In this document: in pieces, positions 503 to 62,625 of the stretch
Position numbering within the stretch: position 1 is the stretch's first letter
How the letters are laid out: each line of letters begins with the position of its first letter
Assembly: GCF_005047655.1 (NCBI RefSeq)
Contig: NZ_SUKF01000009.1
Coordinates: forward strand, 62,001-126,000
Direction: 5' to 3'
Origin: Sinimarinibacterium arenosum
GTDB taxonomy: Bacteria > Pseudomonadota > Gammaproteobacteria > Nevskiales > Nevskiaceae
Length of the DNA: 64,000 nucleotides
Notes under the pieces: generated by a model
What the model was told of the DNA's origin: nothing
Database searches by the model: none
Seen by the model: the letters and a program-made list of their open reading frames with translations, nothing else
Made by a program: the position numbers and the translations under genes

Positions 503-528
503 GCGGGGCGCTTGTCCAGCAATACCGT
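503..528 (+). promoter_or_regulatory. Class A promoter before the 567 gene
   Basis: GCGGGGCG (503-510), 12 bp, TACCGT (523-528), which runs into CGTCTAAG. It lies 38 bp before the start codon. It is a member of the replicon-wide motif described in the findings. Confidence 0.6.
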
Positions 529-566
529 CTAAGCGTTGGCCCGCTCACTGTTGAATTGGAGGCACC

Positions 567-776
567 ATGTACTTTGAACACACTGCGACCCCCTTGCGCC
601 TGGCCCGCGCCCATTCGTCGCAGCCGTTGTGTCCAAGCTGCACTGCAAAGCTCACGGCGGCCGAGATTGCAGGCGATGACGGTAGTCACGTCTGTACCGA
701 GTGCCGCAAGCACCCGGTGGGACGCCGCATCGTGGCTGAGACTCGCTCGCGCCGGGCCCCCGGCGCCGGGGCGTAG
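567..776 (+). CDS. Small zinc-ribbon-like protein
   Basis: This 69-residue protein has CPSC at residues 22-25 and CTEC at 43-46, a four-cysteine arrangement typical of a zinc ribbon. The start has a good ribosome site (GGAGG, 569 minus about 10 bp). It opens a tightly packed run of small genes (567, 786, 1103, 1422) with gaps of 2-9 bp, so they are probably one transcript from the promoter at 503. I do not recognise the family. A DNA- or RNA-binding accessory role is possible but unproven. Confidence 0.65.
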   Translation: MYFEHTATPLRLARAHSSQPLCPSCTAKLTAAEIAGDDGSHVCTECRKHPVGRRIVAETRSRRAPGAGA

Positions 777-785
777 GGGTAGCCG

Positions 786-1100
786 GTGGGCATCGACAAT
801 GTCGGCAGTGCGTATTGCCGTCACTGCGGTGCGCGCTTGCGCCTGTTCACCATTTTCAATCGCGACATGCAGGGCTTGTGCAAAGCGTGGCGGAGTCGGC
901 ACGAGCGTGTATGCGCGCGGCGGACGCCCGCGGAACGGCGCAAATGGGCACGCAAATACGAAGGGAAGGACCACGACGAAAGCGCGCTCGTTGTCGACAT
1001 GGAACATCCCGGGTTTCGCGATCTTGAGGTTCCGGCGCCCAATGACTCTGGAGGGCCCCAACGAACACATTCCGCGCATGCGCGCGACGATGGGAGGTAG
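786..1100 (+). CDS. Small cysteine-containing protein of unknown function
   Basis: A 104-residue protein read from a GTG start 9 bp after the previous stop, which suggests translational coupling. Cysteines 11, 14, 32 and 43 (CRHCG then two single Cys) could bind zinc. The rest is basic in the middle and low-complexity at the C-terminus. The assignment rests on operon position, the tight 2-bp gap to the next gene and the cysteine pattern. Function is not recognised. Confidence 0.55.
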   Translation: MGIDNVGSAYCRHCGARLRLFTIFNRDMQGLCKAWRSRHERVCARRTPAERRKWARKYEGKDHDESALVVDMEHPGFRDLEVPAPNDSGGPQRTHSAHARDDGR

Positions 1101-1102
1101 CA

Positions 1103-1417
1103 ATGGAGATGCACGACGAGATGATGTTGGACTACCCGCCGAGCCTCGCGGCGGCAAAGCAGTTGGGCGAGGTGCCGGCTGGCTTTGCGTTCTTTGAATT
1201 CGAGTGTCTGGGGGACCGCCCAGAAGAATTTACGGTTATGAAGGTTACGGGCGCGGTGTTTCGGGAAGCAAAGACCGGAAAAAACAAGGGGCGCAGGACT
1301 GTCGCCATTCCTGGCACAGAGCGCACGGTCTACGTCACTGCAGAGGCGATTCGTGATGCAACGCCGGCGGGGTATGGCGATGCCTTCCGCGCCAAGCTTG
1401 CAGCTGCCACGGAGTAA
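1103..1417 (+). CDS. Hypothetical protein, 104 aa
   Basis: The start at 1103 follows a strong GGGAGGT ribosome site. The protein has a mixed alpha/beta composition (AGFAFFEFE near residue 26, a Lys-rich stretch KTGKNKGRR near 59-67, then a hydrophilic helix). No known motif is visible. It sits third in the 567-1634 operon. The small basic patch could contact nucleic acid, but this is only a guess. Confidence 0.6.
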   Translation: MEMHDEMMLDYPPSLAAAKQLGEVPAGFAFFEFECLGDRPEEFTVMKVTGAVFREAKTGKNKGRRTVAIPGTERTVYVTAEAIRDATPAGYGDAFRAKLAAATE

Positions 1418-1421
1418 GGAC

Positions 1422-1634
1422 GTGAATCACTCAGAGGGGACTGCGATCGAGTTCCGATTTGTTGAGTACAACGAAACTCGGGCGCTTCGGGATAAGGAAG
1501 CCGCGCGTGTTGTGGTTATCCAAAGAGGCGCGGAACACTGGCTCTGGATGAGCAAGGCCGATATTGAATCGAACATGAAGACGTTTGGGCGCCACCCTGA
1601 ATTGGTGAAGGCTCACGCGGCATACAAGTTCTAA
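1422..1634 (+). CDS. Hypothetical protein, 70 aa
   Basis: I chose the GTG at 1422, preceded by AAGGA and only 4 bp after the previous stop, rather than an ATG further upstream that would overlap the preceding gene deeply. The protein contains FRFVEYNETRALRDKEAARV and HWLWMSKADIESN, giving a compact alpha/beta domain. I do not recognise the family. Confidence 0.55.
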   Translation: MNHSEGTAIEFRFVEYNETRALRDKEAARVVVIQRGAEHWLWMSKADIESNMKTFGRHPELVKAHAAYKF

Positions 1635-2340: not shown

Positions 2341-2366
2341 GCGGGGCCCCCATGCGCCCGTAGGGT
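2341..2366 (+). promoter_or_regulatory. Class A promoter of the methyltransferase-helicase gene
   Basis: GCGGGGCC (2341-2348), 12 bp, TAGGGT (2361-2366) followed by GAAG. It is 26 bp before the start at 2393. Confidence 0.7.
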
Positions 2367-2392
2367 GAAGTCTCATCCCGCAGGAAGCTGCT

Positions 2393-5300: not shown

Positions 5301-5527
5301 ATGCACACCTCACCGGCAGCGTCGACCTCTACAAGGCACAAATGGTCGCCTTCAAGCAGGACACTTCGAATGCCGGGCTGGACTTCGCTACGCCTGAGTT
5401 CTCGCCGTCCGACTTCGAGCACTGGATGACGATTCTGGACAACTTCTGCCAGTCGATCGGCAAAGCTCGGATCGAGTTGCGGCGGGCGCGGAACGATGCG
5501 GGCGCGGGGCGCCTGCTCGCGGCATAG
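2393..5527 (+). CDS. Fused DNA methyltransferase and SNF2-type helicase
   Basis: A 1044-residue protein. The N-terminal part has the SAM-binding motif DNSVGSGRL (residues 68-76) and the adenine-methyltransferase motif NPPF (131-134). The C-terminal half has a DEGS box near residue 630 and the helicase block GVGARGLNLPQASHVVFYDR with QEEQAMYR at about 924-956, typical of SNF2-like translocases. This architecture is known from phage and plasmid proteins thought to protect or modify DNA against host restriction (P1 DarB-like proteins). A classical Walker A is not obvious to me, so helicase activity is uncertain. It has its own class A promoter, and CAGGAAG serves as ribosome site. The role in anti-restriction is inference. 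Confidence 0.75.
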   Translation: MSTWYTPMTTRTSAGQRVPKAGGLSELAARRVAHQGQFFTPTDVAAVMWELALTAFGDEANTGLHILDNSVGSGRLLQFARAQDSVYGCDIDADTLRALGDAMEAGGVKHDLLAVGMENVAAEGMDVALINPPFSLHLESPRLTAYPCCAYGKFGPSTAALSHWYSLYQAMAASRAVIALLPSSVVDQLNEHPEIERALHAVVRLPVSTFVNEGAEVSTVLLALGAPRPQGRSVRIGTLDEARAQTAAFAPAPLPEGMRPPTRFASLSVRTGAPTITGPVTGDDRVRIYRSGRNIKFRFACAFTHARVINAVLESPLGFRNHLQNRYPAGIEYRGSARLLTEVLLCGTTPTEYLDRLCAIIRAVDGIPEPDRDLLGYLARRWRAVQVERTPLQRTIYDPDGEHSRASLDGACVTVVKTHLCDPASFSSPLARAGQDVTLVRVSDCELERYRYSLAPNMPPLSVDQLRELVQLPAISSGAEWVQIEAGRAAAFPERAAAIDRRLSQAGADPWLGGWKFQRDDVIELCMTRGAIAGHLMALGKSRIAAGCCLAGGQHNAIVVEAGLVPEMLAQFKEFGLPSDQYKVIRKLGDLEDLRRINLISYNTLRKPIGKGSRVTFAARLRRRFHTVCADEGSVLSHTDTAQTQALHRLSATRRIALDGTPIASYPRNVLPMVCWASREGTASQPYGMRSAYITGELFSSAYSAERGIDRFREQFVVTEWVTHQFEDDLQSGGKREIPSLANLDLYRQFIGRHILRRVWGEPAVEAHVSMPKPECSTVEVAWDSDHLETYVATAEDFVDWWKAQRPDVPGQKLNLVSVLLRLGAACRAASIPQDLKGPHAWTGGLTSKQRWCVDTLENLHADGGTVLCFFESPLCAALVGSALRARGVDALEFTGLSSPTQRTTALDTDFRTGKTRIILMTFGVGARGLNLPQASHVVFYDRMWTPRQEEQAMYRALRVGRKGVLKVIYAHLTGSVDLYKAQMVAFKQDTSNAGLDFATPEFSPSDFEHWMTILDNFCQSIGKARIELRRARNDAGAGRLLAA

Positions 5528-5563
5528 GGTTGGCAGACCACATAGTCGGGAACCCAGGTTGCC

Positions 5564-6250: not shown

Positions 6251-6276
6251 GCGGGGCGCGTCCCCTCGGATACGGT
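6251..6276 (+). promoter_or_regulatory. Class A promoter before the 6301 gene
   Basis: GCGGGGCG (6251-6258), 12 bp, TACGGT (6271-6276), 24 bp before the start. The stretch 6105-6250 otherwise shows no gene. Confidence 0.7.
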
Positions 6277-6300
6277 GGACCTCATTAACCGGGGATGGAC

Positions 6301-6968: not shown

Positions 6969-6994
6969 GCGGGGCCCTGCCTGGAGCGTAGGGT
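6969..6994 (+). promoter_or_regulatory. Class A promoter of the DNase-like gene
   Basis: GCGGGGCC (6969-6976), 12 bp, TAGGGT (6989-6994), 31 bp before the start at 7026. Confidence 0.7.
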
Positions 6995-7025
6995 GTCGCC
7001 CCGGACCCTCCATCAAGGACACTAC

Positions 7026-8167: not shown

Positions 8168-8194
8168 GCGGGGCGCGCTGCGTCCCGATTGGGT
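8168..8194 (+). promoter_or_regulatory. Class A promoter of the 5' nuclease gene
   Basis: GCGGGGCG (8168-8175), 13 bp, TTGGGT (8189-8194), 27 bp before 8222. The -10 half is weaker than in other sites. Confidence 0.5.
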
Positions 8195-8221
8195 GGTGTC
8201 ACTTGCCCGGCGAGACTGATC

Positions 8222-9646: not shown

Positions 9647-9672
9647 GCGGGGCCGCTGTGCATGGGTACGGT
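9647..9672 (+). promoter_or_regulatory. Class A promoter of the GHKL ATPase gene
   Basis: GCGGGGCC (9647-9654), 12 bp, TACGGT (9667-9672), 31 bp before 9704. Confidence 0.65.
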
Positions 9673-9703
9673 GGAGTCACTGATCCACGAATGGAAGAGC
9701 TTG

Positions 9704-11832: not shown

Positions 11833-11858
11833 GCGGAGCACGCCGCCGACAGTAGGGT
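11833..11858 (+). promoter_or_regulatory. Class A promoter before the 11903 gene
   Basis: GCGGAGCA (11833-11840), 12 bp, TAGGGT (11853-11858) followed by GA. It starts right after the DUF5983 stop codon. Confidence 0.65.
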
Positions 11859-11902
11859 GAGCTCATGGGTGCTGCCGCACCGATCGCCAGAGAGTCAGTG
11901 TC

Positions 11903-12775: not shown

Positions 12776-12802
12776 GCGGGGCGCGGTAGATTTGGACACG
12801 GT
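12776..12802 (+). promoter_or_regulatory. Class A promoter before the 12830 gene
   Basis: GCGGGGCG (12776-12783), 13 bp, CACGGT (12797-12802), 27 bp before the start. Confidence 0.6.
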
Positions 12803-12829
12803 AGAGACATCCACTCGCCGGAGTTCCGC

Positions 12830-13943: not shown

Positions 13944-13968
13944 GCGGGGCGCGTTCTTCACCCGTCTA
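13944..13968 (+). promoter_or_regulatory. Class A/B hybrid promoter of the outer-membrane protein gene
   Basis: GCGGGGCG (13944-13951), 11 bp, CGTCTA (13963-13968) then GTAGTG, 30 bp before 13999. Same layout as the sites at 34780 and 44068. Confidence 0.65.
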
Positions 13969-13998
13969 GTAGTGAATGTCCACAACAGGAGAGTAACC

Positions 13999-14598
13999 AT
14001 GCTTCGCACCGTTTTGATTGTTCTCGCCACCGTCTTCGCGCCGATGGCCATCGCCAGCAACTTCAACGCAACTCTGATCGTCGGAGATCGGACGTTCTCG
14101 CAGAGCGACTGGGAGCCGGTCGATCGCGCCACGATGGTCGGCGTGTTCAGTGATGTGCGCCCGTATGAGGCCGTGCCGCTGTATGTCTCGGGTGGCATTC
14201 AGGTGTCGACGGGCAACGGCCGGGAGTGCTACGACAACTGTAGCTCGTCGGGAGGTCAGATCACTTCGCGACGCACGCGGCTGGAACTCTCCGAGGTAGT
14301 GCTGGGCTTCAAGCTGATGCCGCGCGTCGGCGACCTCTCGCTGTACCTCGGCGCGGGCGCGTCCTACATCGAGGCGGACGTGCAGGTGAGTGACGGTTAC
14401 GGCCGTGCGAGCGATCAGGACGGCGGCTATGGCTTCTATGGGCAGGCCGGATTGATCTGGCACTGGGGTCCCTGGCACCTCGGCCTGGAAGCGCGCGAGG
14501 TTGTCGGAAGTAAGGTTGCCCCGTTCGGCATGGACTCCGATGTTGACGGCCTGACCCTCGGCGTTCTCGCAGGCATGGACTGGGGCGCTGCGCAGTAG
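13999..14598 (+). CDS. Outer-membrane beta-barrel-like protein
   Basis: 199 residues with a clear Sec signal (MLRTVLIVLATVFAPMAIA, cut before SNFN). Alternating polar/hydrophobic strands follow (PLYVSGGIQVSTG, ELSEVVLGFKLMP, DLSLYLGAGASYIEADV, YGFYGQAGLIWHW) and the protein ends with a strand, as in small porin-like barrels. Two Cys residues in ECYDNCSS may form a loop disulfide. AGGAGAG stands upstream of ATG 13999. The ligand is unknown. A plasmid-borne surface protein could act in entry exclusion or adhesion. Confidence 0.7.
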   Translation: MLRTVLIVLATVFAPMAIASNFNATLIVGDRTFSQSDWEPVDRATMVGVFSDVRPYEAVPLYVSGGIQVSTGNGRECYDNCSSSGGQITSRRTRLELSEVVLGFKLMPRVGDLSLYLGAGASYIEADVQVSDGYGRASDQDGGYGFYGQAGLIWHWGPWHLGLEAREVVGSKVAPFGMDSDVDGLTLGVLAGMDWGAAQ

Positions 14599-14623
14599 CG
14601 GGGCAGCGCCCTTTGCATACGGT
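14598..14623 (+). promoter_or_regulatory. Class A promoter of the ligase gene
   Basis: GCGGGGCA (14598-14605), 12 bp, TACGGT (14618-14623), 31 bp before 14655. The first base overlaps the stop codon of the preceding gene. Confidence 0.7.
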
Positions 14624-14654
14624 TTGATCTGCGCCCCCATTTCTGGAGTACCGA

Positions 14655-16526
14655 ATGCCTGTCCTTCTGCCCCAACTGAGCGACGATGAACTGCTCGCGA
14701 CAATCGACCGCCTGAATACGGCGTACCGCGCCGGGACCCCTGAGGTCGATGACGATGTCTACGATCACGTATACCTGCAAGCGCTACGTGAACGGCACCC
14801 CGACCATCCGCTGCTGTGGAACGTCGAGCCAGAGCCGGTAGGTGCGTTCGGCGCACCTCATCGCCATGTCAGCGCCATGCTGTCGACGGAAAAGGCCTAT
14901 ACCAGCGATGAGGTTGGCGCTTGGATGCGCCGGGTTCAGAGTGCCGCCGCCGAGATCAACATTCCGGACGCTGACATTTGGGTCCGCATCACCGCGAAAC
15001 TCGATGGTCTGGCGGGCTACTGGGACGGAGCGGTGCTGGCGACTCGCGGAGACGGCGCATTCGGTCAGGATGTCACGCGCATTGTTTCGCGGGGCGTACA
15101 ACTGGATCGGGCGGTGATGGGGCCGGGCGAGCTGGTCATTCAGCAAGCGTATTTCGAAACCGCGATCGCCGAACAGTACGACATGGCACACGCGCGCAAC
15201 TTCATGGTCGGACTGGTGGGCGCCGACACCGTGAAGCCTCACCATTCTGAAGCGCTGGCGGCGGGCGTGTGCCGCTTTGTCCCGTACTCAACTCTCGAGT
15301 CCCGCGAGGCTGGGCTGGCGGAACTGCCGGAGTGCTATGCGCAGATGGCCGCGGAGCTTTGCGCGGCATCGGAGTACGCCACCGACGGCGCCGTTGTCGA
15401 AGTCCTCAATGTGGAGCTGCGCAAGGCAATGGGGGCGACGAGCCATCACCATCGCTGGATGCTTGCGTTGAAAACCGTGGGCGAAGTCGCCCAGACGCGC
15501 GTCGAATCCGTCACATTGCAGGTTGGTCGGACAGGTCGCATCACCCCCGTGCTGGAGGTTGCTGCGGTCGAACTGTCGGGTGCGACGATTCGGCGCTGCA
15601 CGGCGCATACGGCCCGGCACATCGAAAGGCTCGGCCTCGGGGCGGGCGCGCTGATAACCCTGGTTCGCAGCGGTTCAGTAATCCCAAAGCTGGTATCCGT
15701 CGACGAGCGGTCAACAGCCCCGGTCGATCTGGGCACCTGTCCATGCTGCGGGGCGGGCACGGTGTGGGACAACGACTATCTGGTCTGCCCCAATGTCGAA
15801 GGGTGCTCAGCTCAGGCCAGTGCGCGGCTGGAGCATTTCTTCTTGCGGCTCGGGGTGAAGGGCTTCGGCCCGAAGCTGTGCGAGCAGCTGTCGCAGGCCG
15901 GGGCCCTCGATCCCATCGCGATTCTGGAGATGAGCGTTGCGGATATGGGTCGCTGTGGTGTCTCCGCAGGGATCGCTGAGAACCTTCTGTCTGCCATTGC
16001 ACAGCGCAAGCAGGAGATCGTGCGCGACACCGATGCGATCGCCGCAGTCGGCGTGCGCCACCTCGGTCGGGGCGACTCGCGCAAGATTCTGGAACAGCAT
16101 CGTTGGCAGGACCTTGCCGGTTTGGACGCGACGGCGATTGCGGCCATTCCCGGATTCGGCGAGCACACGGCACGGATGATTGCCCCGCATCTGCCGGCGG
16201 TCTGCGACACGCTGTCTGCGCTTGTCGGGTTGGGCTTCAATATTGAAGCGACCGTTCGCCCCAGCGACATTGCCGGGTCCAATATCAGCGGCAAGAAAAT
16301 TGTGTTCACCGGCACCATGCCGCTGGGGCGCGCGCAAATGGAACAGCAAGCCCGTGCTCTGGGTGCGACAGTGCAATCTTCGGTATCGGCCGCAACCGAC
16401 ATTCTCGTTGTCGGAGACAAGGCCGGTTCGAAGAAGGCCAAAGCAGAACAGCTTGGCGTGCAGATTCTGCCGTTGGACGAGTACCGGAGTTTGATCGCCG
16501 GACCGACGGGCACAGCGCCCGTCTAA
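14655..16526 (+). CDS. ligA: NAD+-dependent DNA ligase (LigA-type)
   Basis: 623 residues, slightly shorter than chromosomal LigA (about 670). The catalytic lysine is Lys115 in AKLDG. The adenylation domain is followed by an OB region, a four-Cys zinc finger (CPCCG then CPNVEGC), helix-hairpin-helix units (GVKGFGPK, IPGFGEHTA) and a C-terminal BRCT domain beginning at KKIVFTGTM. The motif after the lysine is divergent from standard LigA, so this is an element-specific copy and not a recent chromosomal capture. It seals nicks using NAD+. With its own class A promoter it pairs logically with the 5' nuclease at 8222. Confidence 0.85.
   Translation: MPVLLPQLSDDELLATIDRLNTAYRAGTPEVDDDVYDHVYLQALRERHPDHPLLWNVEPEPVGAFGAPHRHVSAMLSTEKAYTSDEVGAWMRRVQSAAAEINIPDADIWVRITAKLDGLAGYWDGAVLATRGDGAFGQDVTRIVSRGVQLDRAVMGPGELVIQQAYFETAIAEQYDMAHARNFMVGLVGADTVKPHHSEALAAGVCRFVPYSTLESREAGLAELPECYAQMAAELCAASEYATDGAVVEVLNVELRKAMGATSHHHRWMLALKTVGEVAQTRVESVTLQVGRTGRITPVLEVAAVELSGATIRRCTAHTARHIERLGLGAGALITLVRSGSVIPKLVSVDERSTAPVDLGTCPCCGAGTVWDNDYLVCPNVEGCSAQASARLEHFFLRLGVKGFGPKLCEQLSQAGALDPIAILEMSVADMGRCGVSAGIAENLLSAIAQRKQEIVRDTDAIAAVGVRHLGRGDSRKILEQHRWQDLAGLDATAIAAIPGFGEHTARMIAPHLPAVCDTLSALVGLGFNIEATVRPSDIAGSNISGKKIVFTGTMPLGRAQMEQQARALGATVQSSVSAATDILVVGDKAGSKKAKAEQLGVQILPLDEYRSLIAGPTGTAPV
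16520..16525 (+). promoter_or_regulatory. Class B (CGTCTA) element before the 16564 gene
   Basis: CGTCTAAGGG overlaps the ligase stop codon (GTC TAA) and lies 38 bp before 16564. Confidence 0.45.
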
Positions 16527-17589: not shown

Positions 17590-17615
17590 GCGGGGCGCCG
17601 TGGCCCACATAGGGT
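17590..17615 (+). promoter_or_regulatory. Class A promoter before the 17641 gene
   Basis: GCGGGGCG (17590-17597), 12 bp, TAGGGT (17610-17615) then GGGGA, 25 bp before the start. Confidence 0.75.
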
Positions 17616-17640
17616 GGGGATTCCACACAAGGAGTTCCCC

Positions 17641-19367: not shown

Positions 19368-19373
19368 CGTCTA
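19368..19373 (+). promoter_or_regulatory. Class B element 7 bp before a start codon (leaderless?)
   Basis: CGTCTAAGGGCCG then ATG at 19381. If CGTCTA is the -10, transcription should begin at or next to the start codon. Confidence 0.45.
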
Positions 19374-19380
19374 AGGGCCG

Positions 19381-20538
19381 ATGAACGACTCTGCCCAACC
19401 CCTCGACGACGTTTCGTACCTGGCGCAATGTCTGAACGCAGTTCAAAGCGTTCTGGCGCGTGACTCCATGGCGCTGCCGCCCCCGATCCTGAGTGGGCGC
19501 AGCGTCATGGATTGCGTTGCCGTACTCACGCCCGCCACGGCGCCGGATCGGTCCCAGCTTTGCCTTTACCTCGGGGTCAACGCCGCCACCCGGCGTCGCG
19601 CCGTCGCTCAGGCCGTCGCGGCGCTCGTGGTTCTGGTCCGGGAGCCTGGGCATCCCAACCCGTTCGCTGCGGCGCGCTGGGGTAAGGTCATGGAGTTCCT
19701 CAAGCAGGACCCCGGTGCTCCGGTGCAGGTCCAGATAGGCCCGCCGCCTCCGATCCTGACACCCGCAACACCCGCCGCCGCTCCCAAGAAGACTGCAGCG
19801 ACGGGACTCACGGTTGACTGGCTACCCCCGGAAGGGGCGCGCGCATTGCCCATCACCGATCGGTTGTTGCCCAAGGGTCCGCTCTCCGACAGTGATGCGA
19901 CGGAGTCCGCTGCCCGGATGATCTCTGCGCTGCTGGATCCACGTGGTCGCGCCTGGTGGGGGCGTGCCGGTAGCGGCGGGCTTGTGGCCGTCGTCGACCC
20001 TGATCAGCTGCGCATGAAGACGGCGTTTCTCGATGCGGTCGCGGACCGCGCGCCCTGCGGGGTGGGCGAGTTGGAACTGCGCCGTTGCATCCGAACGATG
20101 ATGCGCCCTCGGGATCACCTGGTCGGCGATGCGTTGCTGATGCTGGGGTGCCCTCCGGGGAGTTCCCAGGTCCAGTTGGTTGCGGCTGCTGGCGCGTGGC
20201 GTCTTGCGCGCCGGGTGCGGGACCAGATTCAGTACGAGGTCAGCCTCGAGTTCATGTGGGCCTCGCCCAGCCAGCGGGGCGCGTACCGCAAGGCGATGTC
20301 TTCCGTGCTGGGGCTGGCGCTGGCTGAGGAATTGGCCGTTGTGTGTGCGGACGCGAACCGCCTGGCCAAGGCCTTCAGCGTCGTCTCTCGGATACACGGA
20401 CGCAGCGAACTGGAGCAGGAGGGGGTTGCGATGGCCGCTGCTGCTGACGAGTTCAAGCGGCGTTGCAAGAAGTCTCGCGGCGGCGTCGCGTACGGCGGGC
20501 TCGATCTGAAACTGATCCGGCCACGGCTGTTCGAGTAG
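19381..20538 (+). CDS. Hypothetical protein, 385 aa
   Basis: A two-part protein. Residues 1-115 form a helical domain (YLAQCLNAVQSVLARDSM, RRRAVAQAVAALVVLVREPG). A Pro/Ala linker with PPPPILTPATPAAAP follows, then a 230-residue helical domain with LRRCIRTMMRPRD and a Lys/Arg patch KRRCKKSRG near the end. No catalytic motif is seen. The basic tail could bind nucleic acid. It has no spaced ribosome site and begins 7 bp after CGTCTA, consistent with a leaderless message. Confidence 0.65.
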   Translation: MNDSAQPLDDVSYLAQCLNAVQSVLARDSMALPPPILSGRSVMDCVAVLTPATAPDRSQLCLYLGVNAATRRRAVAQAVAALVVLVREPGHPNPFAAARWGKVMEFLKQDPGAPVQVQIGPPPPILTPATPAAAPKKTAATGLTVDWLPPEGARALPITDRLLPKGPLSDSDATESAARMISALLDPRGRAWWGRAGSGGLVAVVDPDQLRMKTAFLDAVADRAPCGVGELELRRCIRTMMRPRDHLVGDALLMLGCPPGSSQVQLVAAAGAWRLARRVRDQIQYEVSLEFMWASPSQRGAYRKAMSSVLGLALAEELAVVCADANRLAKAFSVVSRIHGRSELEQEGVAMAAAADEFKRRCKKSRGGVAYGGLDLKLIRPRLFE

Positions 20539-23805: not shown

Positions 23806-23831
23806 GCGGGGCGGGCATGGCCGCGTAGGGT
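23806..23831 (+). promoter_or_regulatory. Class A promoter of the KTSC gene
   Basis: GCGGGGCG (23806-23813), 12 bp, TAGGGT (23826-23831) then GAAGG, 24 bp before 23856. Confidence 0.75.
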
Positions 23832-38451: not shown

Positions 38452-40263
38452 ATGCTGCTACCTGCCACTGAGCCGCCGGGCCCCGGCATCCTCGCTGATC
38501 TCGCGATTTCGGAAATCAGCGTCAAGGAGGGCCACAACCCTCGCCGGTACTTTGATCCCGCAAAACTGGACGAGCTGAAGGCGTCGATTCAGGCGCAGGG
38601 GGTCGTGCAGCCGATCCTGGTGCGCCCGCGTCCGGATGGCGGCCACTGGATCGTAGCCGGCGAGCGCCGCTTTCAGTGCGCCAAACAGTTGGGCCTGCTC
38701 AATATCCCGGCTCTGATTCGGGAGCTGACTGATCGCGAGGCGATGGCGGCGGCCGTAGCCGAGAACGCCAAACGCGTTGACATCACTCCGGCGGAAGAGG
38801 CCAAGACGGCTCGGCAAGCGCTCGACCTGCACGACGGCGATGAGGATCAGGCGGCGCGCTCACTCGGCTGGTCGCGGTCTACTTTCCGCGCTCGCTTGCT
38901 GCTGCTCAATGCCAGTGAGGTGGTGCTGGATGCACTAATGCGCGGCGCCATTCTCCTTGGGCACGCCGAACTGCTGTCGACCCTTCCGGACGAGTTGCAG
39001 GGCACGGTGCTTGAGCGCGTGCTGACCTACAACATCAGCGTGGCCGAACTCAAGCGCCAGTTGGCGAGCTTTACGCAGGAGTTGGCGGCGGCGCCCTTCG
39101 ACACCCGTCAGTGTGCGGGCTGTCCTCACAACAGCAGCACGCAGGCCAGCCTCTTCGAACAGCATGTGGGCGAGGGCCGATGCTCCGGCAAGAGCTGCTG
39201 GGACAGCAAGGTCGAGGTCCACCTTGAAGGGCTCAAAGCCGAGAAGGCCACCGAGTTCAACGTCGTCTGGTTTGACCGCGAGAAAGACCCTGACAGCTAC
39301 GTTCGCCTGGTGTGCTCCGGGCACGGTGCCGTAGGCCCCAGCCAGTTCGATGCGTGCAAGAGCTGCGCGTTCAATGGGGCGCTCATTGCGACGGTGCCAG
39401 GCAAGGCGGGCCGGGTTGCTGACGATGTGTGCTTCAACGTCGAATGCAACCGTGAAAAGGTTGCCTCATTCGCAGCGTCGCTTGCGTCGCCCGTTGAAGC
39501 GTCGGGATCGCAGGACAGCTCGCCAAAGGCGGCGGCCCAGCCGCAGGCCAAAGCGCAACCCGCGAAGCAGAAGAACACCAAGGCCAAGACCAGCGTCGCT
39601 GCAGCTCCCAAGAAGAACCTGCAGGCGGACCTGGCACTCATCCGTTCGGTGGCGTGCGATACCGTTCTGGCTGATCCGCAGCTGCGCCTCGCCTCGGAGG
39701 TTTACGCGCTTGCTCGTGCCGTCAAGCTCGACCGCGAGGCATTCGGACTCCCGAAAATGGGCGAGTTCGGACTAACCCCGTTCCTGACGCGCTCCGTTGC
39801 AGAGCTTGAAAACAACAAGACGGCCCTGCTGCGACTGTTGTTCGACGCGAAAACAGATGGGCCGGAACGCTTCACGCCGGACGATGAACCGACGCGCCTT
39901 CGCGTTCGCGACAGCGCGGCAATCCTGCAGTTGCGCGGCATCTCGCTCGATGGTCGATTCGTGCTCGATCAGGCGTATCTGGAAACGCTCACCAGTGCTG
40001 GCATTCAAGGGCTGCTTCAGGAAGCAGGCTTTGTCGAGTCGTGTGAAGGCGGCACCCCCGAAGAGCGCGAGAAGTCGTACCGAAAGTTGCTTGGCATGCG
40101 TCGTACCGATCTGATCCAGGCCGTGCTCAAGTCCTCCCACGACTTCACGTCGTTCGTCCCCGCCTCGGTCTATGCGGCCTGCGAGACGGCATTGCGGGGC
40201 GTGTCGCTACCTGGTCAGGTGGCCTCATCGACAACCACCGAGGAATCTTCTGATGCTCAATGA
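38452..40263 (+). CDS. PRTRC system ParB-family protein
   Basis: 603 residues. The ParB core has GHNPRRYFDPAKLDELKASI, IQAQGVVQPILVR and GGHWIVAGERRFQCAKQLGL (ParB box with GERR), then a helix-turn-helix (AARSLGWSRSTFRARL). C-terminal to this come Cys clusters (CAGCPHN, GRCSGKSC, then CKSCAFNG and CFNVECN) and a Lys/Ala-rich linker, typical of the PRTRC ParB and not of partition ParB. GGAGAG precedes ATG 38452. It opens the operon ParB-E-C-x-F-B. Confidence 0.85.
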   Translation: MLLPATEPPGPGILADLAISEISVKEGHNPRRYFDPAKLDELKASIQAQGVVQPILVRPRPDGGHWIVAGERRFQCAKQLGLLNIPALIRELTDREAMAAAVAENAKRVDITPAEEAKTARQALDLHDGDEDQAARSLGWSRSTFRARLLLLNASEVVLDALMRGAILLGHAELLSTLPDELQGTVLERVLTYNISVAELKRQLASFTQELAAAPFDTRQCAGCPHNSSTQASLFEQHVGEGRCSGKSCWDSKVEVHLEGLKAEKATEFNVVWFDREKDPDSYVRLVCSGHGAVGPSQFDACKSCAFNGALIATVPGKAGRVADDVCFNVECNREKVASFAASLASPVEASGSQDSSPKAAAQPQAKAQPAKQKNTKAKTSVAAAPKKNLQADLALIRSVACDTVLADPQLRLASEVYALARAVKLDREAFGLPKMGEFGLTPFLTRSVAELENNKTALLRLLFDAKTDGPERFTPDDEPTRLRVRDSAAILQLRGISLDGRFVLDQAYLETLTSAGIQGLLQEAGFVESCEGGTPEEREKSYRKLLGMRRTDLIQAVLKSSHDFTSFVPASVYAACETALRGVSLPGQVASSTTTEESSDAQ

Positions 40264-41194: not shown

Positions 41195-41220
41195 GCGGGG
41201 GCGCGGTGGGTCAGTAGGGT
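41195..41220 (+). promoter_or_regulatory. Class A promoter 6 bp before PRTRC F (leaderless?)
   Basis: GCGGGGGC (41195-41202), 12 bp, TAGGGT (41215-41220), then GGCGGC and ATG. The start codon falls where transcription should begin. Confidence 0.65.
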
Positions 41221-41226
41221 GGCGGC

Positions 41227-42291
41227 ATGGACACACCGCACAGCACATATTGGTTGCCCCCTCGCTTGTCTCCGGCATTCCTGGACTCGACTGAGGCCGC
41301 CGCGCGACTCCTCAGCTCGGACATTACGCTCGCAGGCATGGCCGCGAGTTCGCGGGCCCATCTGGCCACGTCAACCGCGTGGCTGCACGCCGCCGGCCTT
41401 GTGACCGATGCGGAGATTGCGAGCGCCTGGCACTCCTGTCAGGTGGTTGCAGCCTTGCGCGACGTTCTGTCGTCGGGAAAGGCGCGGCTCGCAGAACGCT
41501 TGCGGCGCCCGGAGGTTCCGGCCGGAAGCGCCTGGATGCACCTGGAGTTCACGACAGATGGCCTCGAGCTTTGCCATGAGTGGTGTGCCTACGCGGCAGT
41601 AATCCCGGTATTCAGTCCGCGTTTTCCTCGCAGCCGCATGCTTCGCGGGTTGGTGTATTCGGTGGCGTGCGATCTTGGGGCGAACTGCTTTGTTCCGGAC
41701 TTTTCCGCCTTTGTGGAGTCCTCGTGGTACCTGGGGTGCGCTCGCGACTGGCTGAAGCGGCGACGGTGGTCGGTCGAGGCCTTTGAGGCTCACCTGGAGG
41801 GCGGGGAAGATCGCTCCGATGAATACGACTTCGAGGAGGACCCCTTCTACAACATGGAGACCCCGACTCAAGTCGCCAACGCAATGTTCCTTCACCGGAC
41901 GCACATGCAACGGCTGCGCAACTCAATCGTGCAGCCTTCGGAGTACCAGCGGTGCCTGGAGAGACTTCCTCGCACCATTCGCCGGATGTCGATCGGGCGC
42001 TGGCTTGAGCAAGCGATCGCCCTTCTGGCCCAGCCGCCTTTGAGCCTGTCGGTGATGGAGCTGTCATCTGGTGGTGATGTCGCGCTCGAAGTCGGGTCGG
42101 TGCTGGTGACCGATCCTGCAATCCTTGAGGCATGCAACCTTGAGTGGAACATGATCGGCGAGGCTGGCGACGCTCCCTCCCGCGTGCTTCGCGGGGACAC
42201 CGAGTCTGCGATACAGGTATTGCAAGCTCTTGAGCGGGTGTCTGCTTGCGCGGCCCAGCTTCATCTCTTTCCGAATGAGGACTTCACATGA
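41227..42291 (+). CDS. PRTRC system protein F
   Basis: 354 residues. The N-terminal YWLPPRLSPAFLDS and the middle VPVFSPRF-like run, then LVYSVACDLGANCFVPDFSA and EEDPFYNMETP match PRTRC protein F. Mostly helical with no catalytic motif. It overlaps protein B by 4 bp. It starts only 6 bp after the -10-like motif. Confidence 0.8.
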   Translation: MDTPHSTYWLPPRLSPAFLDSTEAAARLLSSDITLAGMAASSRAHLATSTAWLHAAGLVTDAEIASAWHSCQVVAALRDVLSSGKARLAERLRRPEVPAGSAWMHLEFTTDGLELCHEWCAYAAVIPVFSPRFPRSRMLRGLVYSVACDLGANCFVPDFSAFVESSWYLGCARDWLKRRRWSVEAFEAHLEGGEDRSDEYDFEEDPFYNMETPTQVANAMFLHRTHMQRLRNSIVQPSEYQRCLERLPRTIRRMSIGRWLEQAIALLAQPPLSLSVMELSSGGDVALEVGSVLVTDPAILEACNLEWNMIGEAGDAPSRVLRGDTESAIQVLQALERVSACAAQLHLFPNEDFT

Positions 42292-44067: not shown

Positions 44068-44092
44068 GCGGGGCGGGCAAGGGGCGCGTCTA
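44068..44092 (+). promoter_or_regulatory. Class A/B hybrid promoter of the DUF6065 gene
   Basis: GCGGGGCG (44068-44075), 11 bp, CGTCTA (44087-44092) then GTGGGG, 32 bp before 44125. Confidence 0.7.
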
Positions 44093-44124
44093 GTGGGGTA
44101 CTCACCTCACCATAGAAACCCCCG

Positions 44125-46986: not shown

Positions 46987-47089
46987 TCGGAGTCCCCTCG
47001 CCTTTCTTGCCACGGTTGCCCTACTCCACCGACATGTTGGCCTTACCGTACTGCGCCCCGCACGCCCCGCACGCCTGGGCGCGATGCGC

Positions 47090-57623: not shown

Positions 57624-58673
57624 TCAGGCGGCGAGCTGCCGACGCAGCAGATCGACTGCGCTATGTGCCTGCTCGATGACCTCACTGACGGGAACCTTCA
57701 GCGCTCGCGCGATGGTGCTGGGCGCAATCGGGTCCTGCCCATCCAGCTGGAACGCCGCGCGCAGGATCTGATGCTGAAGGGTCGGCAACTCGCCGAGTTG
57801 GCGCCGTAGCGAGACGATGTCGCACTCGGCATCGATCTCTGCCCAGTCGAAGCTGTCGGCCAGGCCGAGCGTCTCCTCAAGCGTTAGATCGTCCGTGCCC
57901 TCGATGACGTGGCTGAGGGAGATGAACTGCGGTGCAACGTCATCGGACGATGAGCGGCGGCTGATGCCGCGCTGGCGGGTCAGCTCATCCCGGATTCGGT
58001 GCTTTGCATAGGTGACCGCGTAGCTGGTCGAGAACTGCATCGTGTCCTCGCTCAGACGGCGATACGCGTCCTGCATGCCGAGCAGTGCTTCCTGCAACAA
58101 GTCCTCGTGGGTGTCGGTCACGCAGGTGCCGGCCGCCTTGCGCACCAGGTGCGCAGCCAGTCGGGCGCTTCCGCTCATGAGGGTATTTTCCATGCGCGCG
58201 AGGCGCTGGGTCACCGGGCCTACGCCGTCGGGCGTGCTCAGACCTTGTGCCCCGAGCTTGCGGATCAGCGCGAGCAGGGTTTGATGGCGCGGCACCACCA
58301 GGCGCGCCGCGGCCGCCAAGCCACGGGCCGACTTCCCGGTCAACGCCCGATCGATTGCGGACAAGGCCGCGGCCCGGTCATCACCGCCGGGGCGCTCCAG
58401 CAACGCCGGCATCTGCGCGGGCTGCGTATCCAGAACCATCGTCCGCAGTTCACGCCAGGTGCTGACCTCCGTGGAAAGGAGCATCCACAGGGAAGTGCGG
58501 GCCTGAATGATCTGGCGGATGAGCGATTCACGCTCCTCGTTGCTTTGGGCCGGGGGCAGTGCGGTCCAGAGCGAGCTGGACGTGTCGGTCACGGGCACCT
58601 TGCGTGCCGGCGCCGTCCGGCGACCGGGGGTGCCTTTCGGCGGGGATTTTGTCGGTGAGTCGTGGCCCGTCAT
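57624..58673 (-). CDS. Divergent sigma-70-family sigma factor
   Basis: 349 residues from ATG 58673. Region 2 is near residues 175-240: EDLLQEALLGMQDAYRRL, then FSTSYAVTYAKHRIRDELTR, like the DLIQEGNIGL and FSTYATWWIR core of primary sigma factors. Region 4 is near 295-349: LPTLQHQILRAAFQLDG, PIAPSTIARALKVPVSEVIE. A long basic or Pro-rich N-terminal part lacks the usual 1.2 landmarks, and a helical insert precedes region 2. The ATG at 58829 would run through a class A promoter at 58701, so it is not used. I infer that it recognises the GCGGGGCG...TASGGT motif, because of its own promoter and the motif's spread over the element. Confidence 0.8.
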   Translation of the reverse strand: MTGHDSPTKSPPKGTPGRRTAPARKVPVTDTSSSLWTALPPAQSNEERESLIRQIIQARTSLWMLLSTEVSTWRELRTMVLDTQPAQMPALLERPGGDDRAAALSAIDRALTGKSARGLAAAARLVVPRHQTLLALIRKLGAQGLSTPDGVGPVTQRLARMENTLMSGSARLAAHLVRKAAGTCVTDTHEDLLQEALLGMQDAYRRLSEDTMQFSTSYAVTYAKHRIRDELTRQRGISRRSSSDDVAPQFISLSHVIEGTDDLTLEETLGLADSFDWAEIDAECDIVSLRRQLGELPTLQHQILRAAFQLDGQDPIAPSTIARALKVPVSEVIEQAHSAVDLLRRQLAA

Positions 58674-58700
58674 GTCGAGAATTCCTGATTCGTTTTCCCG

Positions 58701-58727
58701 ACCGTATGAATCGAAGGGTGGCTCCGC
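58701..58727 (-). promoter_or_regulatory. Class A promoter of the sigma gene
   Basis: Minus strand: GCGGAGCC (58727-58720), 13 bp, TACGGT (58706-58701), 27 bp before 58673. It would allow the sigma factor to drive its own gene. Confidence 0.65.
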
Positions 58728-58792: not shown

Positions 58793-58818
58793 GCGGGGCG
58801 CCTTCGGATGGGCAGGGT
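58793..58818 (+). promoter_or_regulatory. Class A promoter before the 58849 gene
   Basis: GCGGGGCG (58793-58800), 12 bp, CAGGGT (58813-58818) then GGGGA, 30 bp before the start. Divergent from the sigma promoter. Confidence 0.65.
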
Positions 58819-58848
58819 GGGGAGGTCAATCACACCTGTGGAGCCTGT

Positions 58849-59184
58849 ATGAATATGGAATCAACCCAGTGCCACGTTTTCCCGCTCTCTCCGGATGGCG
58901 TCGTCGTGATCCCGCTGGAGGTGCCTCACGAGGCGATCTGCATCGGGGTCAATAACTGTCAGCTGGTTTTCGAGCTGGGCGGGTCCGAACGGACCTACGA
59001 GTTGCCCATTGGCGATGGCATGCCGGTGCGGATCGAACAGCATGCGGTGTCAGCGGCCGGGGAGATGTCGCGATTCCAGGTGGCGGTGCCGGACCCTGAC
59101 GGCGGTCATCAGCTCGAGGTCACCGCGGATATCAGTGGCGCCCGCTGGTTTGTTGCGGGGCGCGTTCGTCCGCGTACGTTTTGA
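58849..59184 (+). CDS. Hypothetical beta-rich protein, 111 aa
   Basis: Starts at ATG 58849 with GGAG upstream. Nearly all of it is beta-like: [54 protein letters not shown]. It lies just before recA, whose promoter is within its 3' end. No family recognised. It could be a small sandwich domain. Confidence 0.55.
59155..59180 (+). promoter_or_regulatory. Class A promoter of recA
   Basis: GCGGGGCG (59155-59162), 12 bp, TACGTT (59175-59180), 39 bp before 59220. There is no LexA-type box here that I can see. Confidence 0.65.
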
Positions 59185-59219
59185 ACTGTCACATCTCTAT
59201 TTCCAACAGGAGCACGAAC

Positions 59220-60386: not shown

Positions 60387-60811
60387 GCCGAAACACGGAC
60401 GTTTCGCGCCCGCCGGAGCGGATGCGTAGCCGGAACTTCACGGGCTCAGGTTTTGAGACAGTGGATCTGTAGGCTGGCAGCAGAGCGACGCAGCGGAGAT
60501 TTTCAAGAGATCCATGCCGGGCGGTTCCGCCCAGTTGCAGCACGACTCACGATCGCGACGTCAACGCCGCGAACAACATCCTTGCCGAGGGACTGCGTAC
60601 ACTCGCAGAAATCGGCGTAGGCCCAGGAGGGGCCGAACTTATGCGCGTGGAGGGTGACACCCACCGAAGGACAGCGGCGAAAGCCGCGGTACCAACGGCA
60701 TCCGTCGAAACGCGAACCGTGTCAGCCACAGCCTCACCGTGTGAGCCGCTCCAGTCATAGGCGTTGCGAACACATGGACCCGTGAGGCTGGGGATTAGGC
60801 ATGGATTCCGA
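60387..60811 (+). mobile_element. Mini TnpB-derived element, copy 2 (opposite orientation)
   Basis: About 425 bp, the same ends and the same internal deletion junction as the copy at 28450-28875, in the reverse orientation. The end of the tnpB frame (DRDVNAANNIL onward) is kept at 60549-60760. It has small point differences from copy 1. No target duplication is seen. Confidence 0.8.
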
Positions 60812-60880
60812 CATAGGCTGGTCACCCATTTGTGGGGCAAAGGCCGAATAGCCCGCTCGGGCGCCCAGTGGTAGCCGAAA

Positions 60881-60910
60881 ACAAAAACGCCCCCGGAGTT
60901 CGGGGGCGTT
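60881..60910 (-). terminator. Rho-independent terminator of the DsbC-like gene
   Basis: Minus strand: AACGCCCCCG, 5-base loop, CGGGGGCGTT, then TTTGTTTT. It lies about 20 bp after the stop codon at 60930. Confidence 0.8.
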
Positions 60911-60929
60911 CTGGAGTTGGAGTAGCAAC

Positions 60930-61742
60930 TTAGGGGGTGGGGGTTGTCGCCGCAGCTTCGGCGCGACCGTACTTGGCAACCACCTGCTCGATCGTCGCCA
61001 CCATGGGTTTGCCGTCGACTTCCATGACGAACGCCGGCGTGCCCTGAAGCCCGGCCAGCTGCATCCAGTTGTACTGCTGCTGAAGCAACACGCCGGTCTC
61101 GGCCTTGGCTTTGTCGGATACCGGGTGCGCAGCAATGAACTGATCCAGGGTGCCTGCAGACTTGGCCGTCGCCGCGTCGCGCAGCACGCTCGCAGGGTCC
61201 TTTGCAGCCCAGACAGCGGCCATGATGTCGGCGCTGTTCGGATCCAGAAACATCACCGGCACCCAGTGGATATTGATTCCCTTGGCGTGGAAGTCGAGGA
61301 TCGCCATCGCGCAGTACGGGCAGTGCGGCTCATAGACGCCCCAGACATCCACTACCGGGCTGCCCTTCTCGGTGACGGTCTTGGCGTCGTTCTTCAGCTT
61401 CTTGAATCCGGCGGCCAGGTCGAACACATGCTCGCTGGTGTGTGTCGCCGTCAGATTCTGACCCTCGTTCCCGAACAGGGTGCCGATCACCGCGTAGTCG
61501 TCTCCGACCTGGTAGATCACCCCGCGGCCGCGCGGTGAGTTCACAGTGAATCCGATGATCTGATCGTTGACCTTGAAGGATTTCTCCGCCGTCGCATGAT
61601 TCAGCTCGAGGGCCTTGCTGACGGCCGCGTTGGGCGCGATCTCCGGGACGGGCGTGACTTCTGCGGCGGTGCCAGCGACAGCGCAAGCCGACATCAGTGA
61701 GCAGGCAAGGAGCACTGCGGTGAAATGAATCGGATGTTTCAT
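60930..61742 (-). CDS. Periplasmic DsbC/DsbG-like disulfide isomerase
   Basis: 270 residues from ATG 61742 (GAGGAA upstream). A lipoprotein-type signal (LLACSLMSAC) is followed by a DsbC-like N-terminal dimerisation region and a thioredoxin domain with EPHCPYCAMAILDF (active CPYC) and LQGTPAFVM (cis-Pro). Such proteins help fold Cys-rich secreted proteins, and conjugative plasmids often carry one. Fits the Cys-rich TraU-like protein at 47593. Confidence 0.8.
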   Translation of the reverse strand: MKHPIHFTAVLLACSLMSACAVAGTAAEVTPVPEIAPNAAVSKALELNHATAEKSFKVNDQIIGFTVNSPRGRGVIYQVGDDYAVIGTLFGNEGQNLTATHTSEHVFDLAAGFKKLKNDAKTVTEKGSPVVDVWGVYEPHCPYCAMAILDFHAKGINIHWVPVMFLDPNSADIMAAVWAAKDPASVLRDAATAKSAGTLDQFIAAHPVSDKAKAETGVLLQQQYNWMQLAGLQGTPAFVMEVDGKPMVATIEQVVAKYGRAEAAATTPTP

Positions 61743-61767
61743 GGTGTATTTCCTCGTGGGGCAATGC

Positions 61768-62613
61768 TCAAAAAGGTTGCGACGGATCCCGACGCTCCAG
61801 CGCCGGGTGGAGCCACCGCAATGAAACCTGGTCGGCCGCGTCGCCCCCGGACACGCTGAATCGCCCTCGGCGCCACACGGCAATTGCGTCGTCGTGAAGT
61901 GCTCGGGGGGTCAGCAGACGCTCAAGTTGCGTGGGGCCAACCTTCAACGTGGTGAAGGGCGAAAGGACGGTTGATGCGACGAAGCCGGCGGGGGGCGGCG
62001 CCGGCTCGGTCCGATGCACCTCAGGCTCAGCCGACAGATAGAGCCACAGCTTGAACAGGTGCCTGCAAAAGCCATCGAAACGTTCCCCGCCCAGGGCGTT
62101 AGCCGCAGATTGGTTGGCCTGCAGCGTGCGGGTGATGAGCCGGTTGACCGACTCACCGGGATCCTGCAGCACCAGATCAATCGGGACCAGGTTGCAGGCG
62201 GGGGAGTCGGCGACGCGGTCCACGACGTGCAGGCGATGCACTTCGCACAGGGTGGGTTCCAGGTTGAACCGCGCCCTTTCGTCGACGGACATGGCGATCG
62301 CGTCGACGGCCTTGCTTGCACAGTAGGTGCCGTCGATGCGCTTCATTTGCCCGGTACGGGACTGCGCGATCGACCATCCGACCACGGCCTGGCTCACGCC
62401 GAAGCCGTAATAGGCGTTGGCCGCGTCTAAAGGGAAGATGTGGGCCGCGTGTATGGAGTCATCGAGATCGGATTCCTCCAGCAATAGCTCCAATGCGTCG
62501 GTGCTGAGAACGACCGTCGCACCAGAATCGTTGCGGAACCGACGCACTGCCTCATGGGCACCAGGCCACATCGGGTGCGGGATATGTCGATAGGCGTGGG
62601 CTTCGGCCGTCAT
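61768..62613 (-). CDS. Hypothetical protein, 281 aa
   Basis: Start at ATG 62613, which lies 6 bp after a minus-strand CGTCTA motif. The sequence is mixed alpha/beta with VLSTDALELLLEESDLDDS, SVDERARFNLEPTLCEVHRL and FVASTVLSPFTTLKVGPTQL. No catalytic motif. Divergent from the RecD2-like gene. It lies 25 bp before the DsbC-like gene in the same direction, so they may be one operon. Confidence 0.6.
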   Translation of the reverse strand: MTAEAHAYRHIPHPMWPGAHEAVRRFRNDSGATVVLSTDALELLLEESDLDDSIHAAHIFPLDAANAYYGFGVSQAVVGWSIAQSRTGQMKRIDGTYCASKAVDAIAMSVDERARFNLEPTLCEVHRLHVVDRVADSPACNLVPIDLVLQDPGESVNRLITRTLQANQSAANALGGERFDGFCRHLFKLWLYLSAEPEVHRTEPAPPPAGFVASTVLSPFTTLKVGPTQLERLLTPRALHDDAIAVWRRGRFSVSGGDAADQVSLRWLHPALERRDPSQPF

Positions 62614-62619
62614 GCCCCT

Positions 62620-62625
62620 TAGACG
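62620..62625 (-). promoter_or_regulatory. Class B element 6 bp before a start codon
   Basis: Minus strand: CGTCTAAGGGGC then ATG at 62613. It lies in the gap between divergent genes. Confidence 0.45.

Follow-up and report, generated by a model that had tools for sequence, protein, structure and literature searches.

The window analysed here is a stretch of 64,000 nucleotides from the gammaproteobacterium Sinimarinibacterium arenosum. It corresponds to positions 62001-126000 of the unclosed, 267,883-bp contig NZ_SUKF01000009.1 (C24 in the following); the whole assembly amounts to 4,544,824 bp, with 4,276,941 bp on the 23 contigs besides C24. We describe a motif that recurs before genes of C24, introduced here as class A, and a divergent sigma-70-family gene encoded in the window (positions are those of the window unless kilobases of C24 are given). 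Genes on C24, on the Pseudomonas plasmids and on the control contigs discussed below stem from a simple in-house caller, and some of the starts are wrong. In a profile search of C24, PRTRC ParB scored above its cut-off and matches to PRTRC B and E below theirs. Two replication-initiator-like genes lie on this single contig, a Rep3 initiator gene at 54414-55820 and a RepM-like one at 37302-38390, the latter below its cut-off. RecA (a RecA equivalog match), an NAD ligase, a 5' nuclease and a RecD2-type helicase are also encoded, and the region from 122.9 to 239.8 kb of C24 contains secretin, T2SSE/F and PilS pilus genes, one TraC and one TraD-like gene. Judged by its transfer genes, C24 is probably a conjugative megaplasmid.

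The strict form of the class A motif, GCGGGGCG-N11-14-TASGGT, occurs seven times in the window, against 0.02 matches expected from shuffles. The whole assembly holds 32 matches, all of them on C24 and none on the other 23 contigs, in line with the original prediction that the motif is specific to the element. Thirty of the 32 are on the same strand, and both minus-strand sites precede minus-strand genes. The spacer measures 12 bp in 24 and 13 bp in eight of these sites; 12 is the commonest length, as had been proposed, but the strict sites do not use the full range of 11-14. With N12-13, the pattern was found once each in ten of 84 other genomes of the order and in none of the other 74. All 14 positions named beforehand carry the sequence described for them. 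Five are strict (6251, 17590, 23806, 35642 on the minus strand, 38400), four have one mismatch in the box (2341, 6969, 9647, 14598) and two have one mismatch in the -10 half (58793, 59155). The remaining three (13944, 34780 on the minus strand, 44068) are hybrids with CGTCTA, present as described, which we now assign together with a second motif class (see below).

Unseeded expectation-maximisation (EM), applied to 90 bp of upstream sequence from each of 286 C24 genes, arrived at the consensus t.GCGGGGC.c.....G.t..GTAgGGTGga.tCa. with a log-likelihood ratio (LLR) of 637, compared with 131 and 134 for letter shuffles. Also, when all 180 GCGGGGC copies on C24 served as the sole anchor, TAG/TAC was enriched at +20, GGT at +23 and CAT at +31. 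A two-block position weight matrix (PWM) located 97 non-redundant sites of at least 11 bits on C24, a count that is partly in-sample. Ninety-one of these are intergenic and six lie inside genes, although intergenic DNA makes up only about one quarter of C24; 72 fall within 120 bp upstream of a start, with leaders peaking at 20-30 nt. For a held-out test, the training set consisted of 223 upstream regions that lie outside the window. The resulting model detected 25 sites of at least 10 bits (21 of at least 12 bits) in the window, as against one (none) in the chromosome control of 20 stretches and 275.7 kb, equivalent to 0.23 per 64 kb, and a mean of 1.7 (0.5) in Markov-1 sequences. A called start lies -2 to 52 nt downstream of the predicted +1 for 17 of the 25 sites. 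At 6251 and 9647 the called start is missed or misplaced and the fit is good by eye, the site at 503 stands ahead of a small open reading frame (ORF), and five sites have no nearby start (5671, 48750, 49805 and 54265 on the minus strand, 55825). In the comparison with shuffled DNA and the host chromosome, the motif was recovered de novo on C24, and before host chromosomal genes it is far from equally common. Class A is confirmed as a motif and is confined to this element within the assembly.

If the final T of TASGGT is numbered -7, the box occupies -32 to -26, an A lies at -11 and a CA step at -1/+1. For 49 C24 sites with intergenic boxes 35-90 bp before a start, A-11 and T-7 were each found in 67%, C-1 and A+1 each in 47%, and the median distance from the predicted +1 to the start codon was 25 nt. 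Many box copies read TTGCGG, which gives a spacer of 16-17 bp, a usual sigma-70 value. The earlier statement that neither half closely resembles TTGACA/TATAAT was therefore too strong, as there is partial likeness in TAxxxT and in the TTGCGG copies. For comparison, a dyad search of 146 upstream regions of the host chromosome gave no clear TTGACA/TATAAT class. The proposal of a promoter rather than an operator gains from the fixed -32/-11/-7/+1 geometry, the CA initiator, the leader length and the same geometry in five relatives, and we refer to the sites as predicted promoters.

The sigma gene is the only sigma region-2 match on C24 (Pfam Sigma70_r2, PF04542, 29.3 bits with a cut-off of 24, 7.4e-7), and alignment with RpoD agrees. 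Region 4 has no Pfam match; it aligns in register with RpoD, with the RpoD-type contact residues replaced. Relatives of the protein were found neither in plasmids, phages, viral contigs and genome contigs nor in 368 other genomes of the class, and a PDB sequence search gave only RpoH at E 0.15. The sigma of the Flagellatimonas centrodinii plasmid NZ_CP092105 matched only itself among plasmids. Sigma gene, a small gene and recA are adjacent on both elements, the C24 sigma gene being inverted relative to NZ_CP092105. The regulon of an extracytoplasmic function (ECF) sigma, with a short two-domain protein and a GGAAC-type -35, does not fit a protein of 349 aa with a long N-terminal extension and a GCGGGGC box. 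For the weak class A site ahead of the C24 sigma gene, the predicted +1 is at 58694, 21 nt before the start, as would be expected for feedback.

Six plasmids with a sigma gene were examined: C24, NZ_CP092105, pQBR57, pSMJS2, pTTS12 (400 of 584 kb) and pQBR103 (400 of 425 kb; picked for TraD). We found one sigma region-2 gene each in pQBR57 and pSMJS2 and one sigma gene in pTTS12; that of pQBR103 scores 16.9 bits, below the Pfam cut-off, and was recognised by alignment. Among plasmids, the sigma of pQBR57 has matches in 156 records, of which 132 are from Pseudomonas. pQBR103 (NC_009444) has a second, RpoH-like sigma gene at 314529-315452, and on pTTS12 (NZ_CP009975, 224303-225409) a plasmid dnaN lies directly ahead of the sigma gene. 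As controls served two other PRTRC contigs from the same order, neither of them with a detected sigma gene, G449:C6 (120 of 180 kb used in the motif analysis) and G447:C2 (whole), and 171 chromosomal upstream regions from 13 of the 20 stretches.

Uniform EM yielded GCGGGGC...GTAGGGTG for C24 (LLR 670 vs 125-128), ttGCGGGGcG...tA.ggtgG for the Flagellatimonas plasmid (182 vs 124-130), CGATGACACA...At.aTgg...CA for pQBR57 (456 vs 128-141), GgTTCTGACAC...Aa..Tg for pSMJS2 (295 vs 124-129), GgTTCTGGCACAC...tgA.aATg...cCA for pTTS12 (606 vs 144-163) and GcTTCTGGCACaC...t.A..aTG...cca for pQBR103 (1013 vs 133-147). Only diffuse models emerged from the two PRTRC contigs (130 vs 113-116 and 132 vs 112-116, 67 regions each) and from the host chromosome (184 vs 119-132). 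Class A is weaker in the Flagellatimonas plasmid than elsewhere, as its EM outcomes show: a first free run drifted to a saturated, useless model (205 vs 141 and 155), and a run seeded with the C24 model reached 162, while shuffles averaged 134 and attained 152 at most. The excess per region was 1.12-2.59 in the other five sigma plasmids. When sites were chosen by their box, A-11 was present in 67-84% and T-7 in 67-81% across all six plasmids, with median leaders of 21-26 nt; C-1 and A+1 were elevated everywhere except in the Flagellatimonas plasmid, where they were weak (23% and 31%). The boxes are group-specific (GCGGGGC, TGACAC or TGGCAC), so that at least three different boxes occur within one geometry. 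The pattern TTCTGGCACAC, searched in 369 genomes of the class with no Pseudomonas chromosome as a named control, matched in 41 of them with at most three copies per genome, compared with 12 and 21 in two plasmid stretches.

The aligned recognition helix reads RERIRQIEAK in host RpoD, PERIRQIEVQ in pSMJS2, KERVRQIECE in pTTS12, KERVRQLEIQ in pQBR103, PQNISRLEKR in pQBR57, VSEVIEQAHS in C24 and VAEALADGNR in the Flagellatimonas plasmid. pTTS12 and pQBR103 share the helix KERVRQ and the box TTCTGGCAC, pSMJS2 combines PERIRQ with TTCTGACAC, and C24 and the Flagellatimonas plasmid share V-S/A-E and GCGGGGC. That similar helices accompany similar boxes is compatible with region 4 setting the code, a relation confounded by general relatedness.

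The second motif class, termed class B, was recognised by hexamer and dyad counts: CGTCTA stands in 29 of 210 upstream regions of C24, where 2.5 are expected, and the Flagellatimonas plasmid has CGGG-N11-TCTA in 16 of 105 (0.25 expected). In anchored profiles, GG(G) falls at -25 to -23, CGTCTA at -13 to -8 and an A at +1. For four of 30 C24 and five of 14 Flagellatimonas sites, the distance is 12 or 13 nt, which puts +1 on or beside the start codon and predicts leaderless messages. Class A precedes 72 C24 genes and class B 30; three genes have both. Between 122.9 and 239.8 kb, five class A genes face 17 with class B, whereas the rest of C24 has 67 and 13; class B is concentrated in the stretch that holds the transfer genes. 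According to a single fixed rule applied to the 61 orthologue pairs of C24 and NZ_CP092105, six pairs are B/B, two A/A and none mixed, i.e. the class agrees in all eight pairs having one on both sides; 35 pairs have none. The orthologue of the class B gene 61768-62613, for example, likewise has class B in NZ_CP092105. Class B recurs in altered form in pSMJS2, where sites read GGGGCAC...CACTATTAGG and one ACTATT lies 11 nt ahead of a start codon. CGTTAT is enriched before pQBR57 genes and may be the class B counterpart there. Sigma-54 promoters have GG at -24 and GC at -12, 10 bp apart; this factor was rejected for class B, the GC at -12 not being conserved in the sites of C24 or the Flagellatimonas plasmid. 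CGTCTA by itself resembles ECF -10 elements. The sites of both classes in the window are compiled in Table 1.

Table 1. Sigma gene and predicted class A, hybrid and class B promoter sites in the window
Feature	Position	Strand	Gene downstream or remark	Score (bits)
Sigma-70-family gene	57624..58673	-	349 aa; N-terminal extension of about 160 aa; region 2, a 3.2-like region and, by alignment, region 4; domain 3 absent	
Class A site, TACCGT variant	503..535	+	small ORF at 568	13.6
Class A	2341..2373	+	methylase-helicase gene 2393-5527	27.7
Class A	5504..5537	+	5564-5872	21.1
Class A	6251..6283	+	ORF 6295-6690	21.4
Class A	6969..7001	+	endonuclease/exonuclease/phosphatase-family gene 7026-8123	18.8
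Class A	8168..8201	+	5'-3' exonuclease 8222-9016	19.2
Class A	9647..9679	+	HATPase gene, called start 9662; in-frame ATG 9704 better by eye	27.0
Class A	11833..11865	+	11903-12115	23.7
Class A	12776..12809	+	12830-13234	17.8
Class A	14598..14630	+	NAD-dependent DNA ligase 14655-16526	17.8
Class A	17590..17622	+	17641-18345	25.5
Class A	23806..23838	+	23856-24188	25.0
Class A	35635..35667	-	PRTRC ThiF-family gene 34809-35621 (52% match to gene annotated PRTRC ThiF in NZ_CP092105)	27.2
Class A	38400..38433	+	PRTRC ParB gene, called start 38431; 38452 better by eye	20.1
Class A	40194..40227	+	PRTRC E-like gene 40253-40741 (PRTRC_E below cut-off)	16.0
Class A	41195..41227	+	41227-42291	22.4
Class A	47038..47070	-	46546-46986	21.9
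Class A, weak	58694..58727	-	GCGGAGCC-N13-TACGGT; sigma gene	10.0 (exactly at threshold)
Class A	58793..58825	+	conserved 109-aa gene 58855-59184	15.9
Class A	59155..59187	+	recA 59220-60290	15.1
Hybrid	13944..13976	+	class A box and CGTCTA (13963); 13999-14598	
Hybrid	34772..34804	-	gene run 34745-29574, four of five genes matching type IV-A CRISPR or Cas6 models	
Hybrid	44068..44100	+	44125-44961	
Class B (CGTCTA)	19368..19381	+	predicted +1 is start codon of 19381-20538, leaderless	
Class B	62613..62625	-	61768-62613, about leaderless	
Class B CGTCTA element	16520..16525	+	16564-17097	
Further CGTCTA copies	18362, 24182, 24875, 25892, 56222	+		

Several other genes of the window were noted. 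The 1044-aa protein encoded at 2393-5527 combines N6-methylase and SNF2/helicase domains and is 57% identical to its counterpart on the Flagellatimonas plasmid. The product of 9662-11437, a HATPase_c_3 protein (GyrB/Hsp90-type ATPase) with a strong class A promoter, has no PADLOC match. A type IV-A CRISPR-Cas set extends over 28901-34745 (csf3, csf4/DinG, csf2, a cas6-like gene and one gene without PADLOC match); its repeat array has a spacing of mostly 61 bp, and a hybrid class A/B promoter stands ahead of its first gene.

We consider it likely that the plasmid sigma directs host polymerase to the class A promoters of a self-transcribing megaplasmid. In this proposal, the probably conjugative element would use private promoters for the transcription of its genes. 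Class A (GCGGGGC at -32 to -26, TASGGT at -12 to -7, CA initiator) would be read by host core polymerase with the sigma factor of 57624-58673 and would serve DNA metabolism, PRTRC, many genes of unassigned function and perhaps the sigma gene itself, in a positive feedback. Class B (GG(G) at -25 to -23, CGTCTA at -13 to -8, sometimes leaderless), with most of its sites in the transfer-gene stretch, would be read by some factor. Sigma and box would have drifted jointly in each plasmid lineage, giving a group-specific code with a fixed geometry. The role of the plasmid sigma as reader, as put forward originally, is favoured by co-occurrence, six sigma plasmids having a motif of this kind and two sigma-less PRTRC contigs lacking one, and by like boxes going with like helices. 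On the other hand, a plasmid partner protein could bind the box, since basic residues that RpoD has at the aligned positions are lost from the C24 and Flagellatimonas helices.

This loss is one of several points that speak against the sigma as reader of class A. The box lies about 3 bp nearer the -10 than the usual -35 hexamer. Before the C24 sigma gene there is only the site at threshold, and the C24 model detects no site upstream of its Flagellatimonas counterpart, where a TTGACA-containing stretch is seen by eye. Like the negative sets, the Flagellatimonas EM hit the site-fraction ceiling, with an excess per region of 0.52 vs 0.22-0.34. Likeness of box and helix also tracks overall plasmid relatedness, and pTTS12 was chosen among plasmids listed as carrying a sigma gene. 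The comparison included no more than two sigma-less contigs, sharing 21 and 22 C24 genes, with 67 upstream regions each, and the G447 genome encodes a divergent sigma elsewhere, on G447:C14. The latter is a 32-kb contig with this 376-aa sigma at 10498-11628, and it may belong to the same plasmid as the PRTRC contig. Furthermore, 18 of the 61 orthologue pairs have a promoter class on one side only, and a single-sequence AlphaFold model of the C24 sigma (predicted local distance difference test, pLDDT, 52.8) was uninformative and not used.

The partner protein could take the form of a plasmid activator binding the GCGGGGC box while the -10 is read by RpoD or a different sigma of the host, as with MotA of phage T4, whose middle promoters have the MotA box near -30, about 12 bp from the -10. 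The position of the box and the spacing of 12-13 bp resemble this arrangement, A-11 and T-7 are the positions most needed by sigma-70 proteins, the C24 and Flagellatimonas recognition helices look like poor DNA binders, and the hybrids pair the same box with a different -10. Against these stand the sigma gene in all six plasmids (that of pQBR103 below the Pfam cut-off), the poor quality of TASGGT as an RpoD -10 and, as a weak point made without a full DNA-binding-domain scan, the lack of an obvious activator in the gene list shared by C24 and the Pseudomonas plasmids; we regard an activator as rather unlikely. Still less probable is that the plasmid sigma reads class B and something else class A, or that it reads both. 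One sigma was indeed found on C24 for two promoter classes, and class B recurs in the Flagellatimonas plasmid and, altered, in pSMJS2, but class A is commoner (72 vs 30 genes) and has near-normal sigma-70 geometry, whereas the box of class B, at -26 to -22, seems to lie too near the -10 to be bound by region 4.

An operator, or a DNA-structure signal for replication, segregation or entry of a strand, could explain the strong strand bias of the strict sites (30 of 32). The genes themselves are similarly biased, 248 of 286 called genes lying on the plus strand, both strict minus-strand sites stand before minus-strand genes and only six of 97 sites lie inside genes. Together with the fixed start-codon distance and the CA initiator, the -11/-7/+1 signature makes such a signal very improbable. 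Ordinary vegetative promoters of a GC-rich host, to which the partial likeness of TTGCGG/TAxxxT to TTGACA/TATAAT would point, are hardly credible: no strict site is present on the other 4.28 Mb, the 275.7 kb of chromosome hold a single PWM site, each of the 84 relatives has at most one strict site, and the motif is absent from the two PRTRC contigs of the same order. With the plasmid sigma as the favoured reader of class A, the original view of an element-specific sigma regulon was largely right and incomplete: the link between sigma and box is one that we infer, and the two promoter classes and the sharing with a known megaplasmid superfamily had both been missed.

NZ_CP092105 (146,558 bp) is the nearest relative found, with a ParB identity of 50%, 71 matched C24 proteins and 63 reciprocal best hits (61 at the cut-off of the promoter-class comparison); C24 has 30 reciprocal best hits with pQBR57 and 39 with pSMJS2. 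C24 resembles the IncP-2/pBT2436 and pQBR megaplasmids in transfer genes, PDDEXK/UvrD pair, RecA, sigma gene and promoter geometry. The pair and RecA are homologous, TraD is about 36% identical, and the homologous transfer genes are ordered alike over the transfer region. These Pseudomonas plasmids differ from C24 (GCGGGGC) in their box, TGGCAC or TGACAC. The likenesses suggest that C24, the Flagellatimonas plasmid and the IncP-2/pQBR megaplasmids form one superfamily. PLSDB types NZ_CP092105, pQBR57 and pSMJS2 as non-mobilizable. No confirmed relatives of the PRTRC ParB pair were found in a scan of genome contigs and viral contigs, and TraD had no match at 1e-100 in 368 other genomes of the class.

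Phage sigma factors and sigma appropriation (T4 gp55, SPO1 gp28, T4 MotA/AsiA) redirect host polymerase. A mobile element turning host polymerase to its own promoter classes, as proposed here, is similar; unlike these phage systems, C24 has PRTRC, replication initiators and transfer genes. The closest described system that we found is SigN (ZpdN) of the Bacillus subtilis plasmid pBS32, a plasmid sigma that, in the parts of the report considered, directs host polymerase to a set of plasmid promoters and activates its own expression, with no SigN promoters found in the chromosome by the authors (PMC6751061). Likewise, the C24 motif is plasmid-borne and absent from the chromosome (32 of 32 strict sites on C24). 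SigN belongs to a Firmicute plasmid, is induced by DNA damage and is lethal when induced (PMC6751061). A second promoter class and a diverging series of codes, as seen here, are not mentioned for SigN in those parts. For the megaplasmids, the main texts of PMC7070040, PMC9537497 and PMC8544851, as far as consulted, describe no such promoters, "sigma" occurring only as a company name or not at all. No paper describing such a promoter code was found in the open-licence literature, supplements excluded, a scope with which novelty is not proven.

The common view is that plasmids rely on host vegetative promoters. For the superfamily that includes IncP-2, we lean, if only slightly, towards transcriptional self-government: the -35 specificity of the sigma would have diverged along with dozens of its own promoters into codes unreadable to host and competing plasmids, with a second private class mainly at the transfer genes. 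The system is amenable to testing in P. fluorescens SBW25 with pQBR plasmids, and RNA sequencing of this strain carrying such plasmids has been reported (PMC8544851, main text as consulted). If the proposal is true, a code and a sigma diverging together would account for the ability of very large plasmids to retain control of many of their genes after entering new hosts, and the plasmids would offer a natural series of matched sigma/-35 pairs. IncP-2 plasmids of the superfamily spread multidrug resistance, and a single gene might then underlie much of the gene expression in a medically important family of plasmids.

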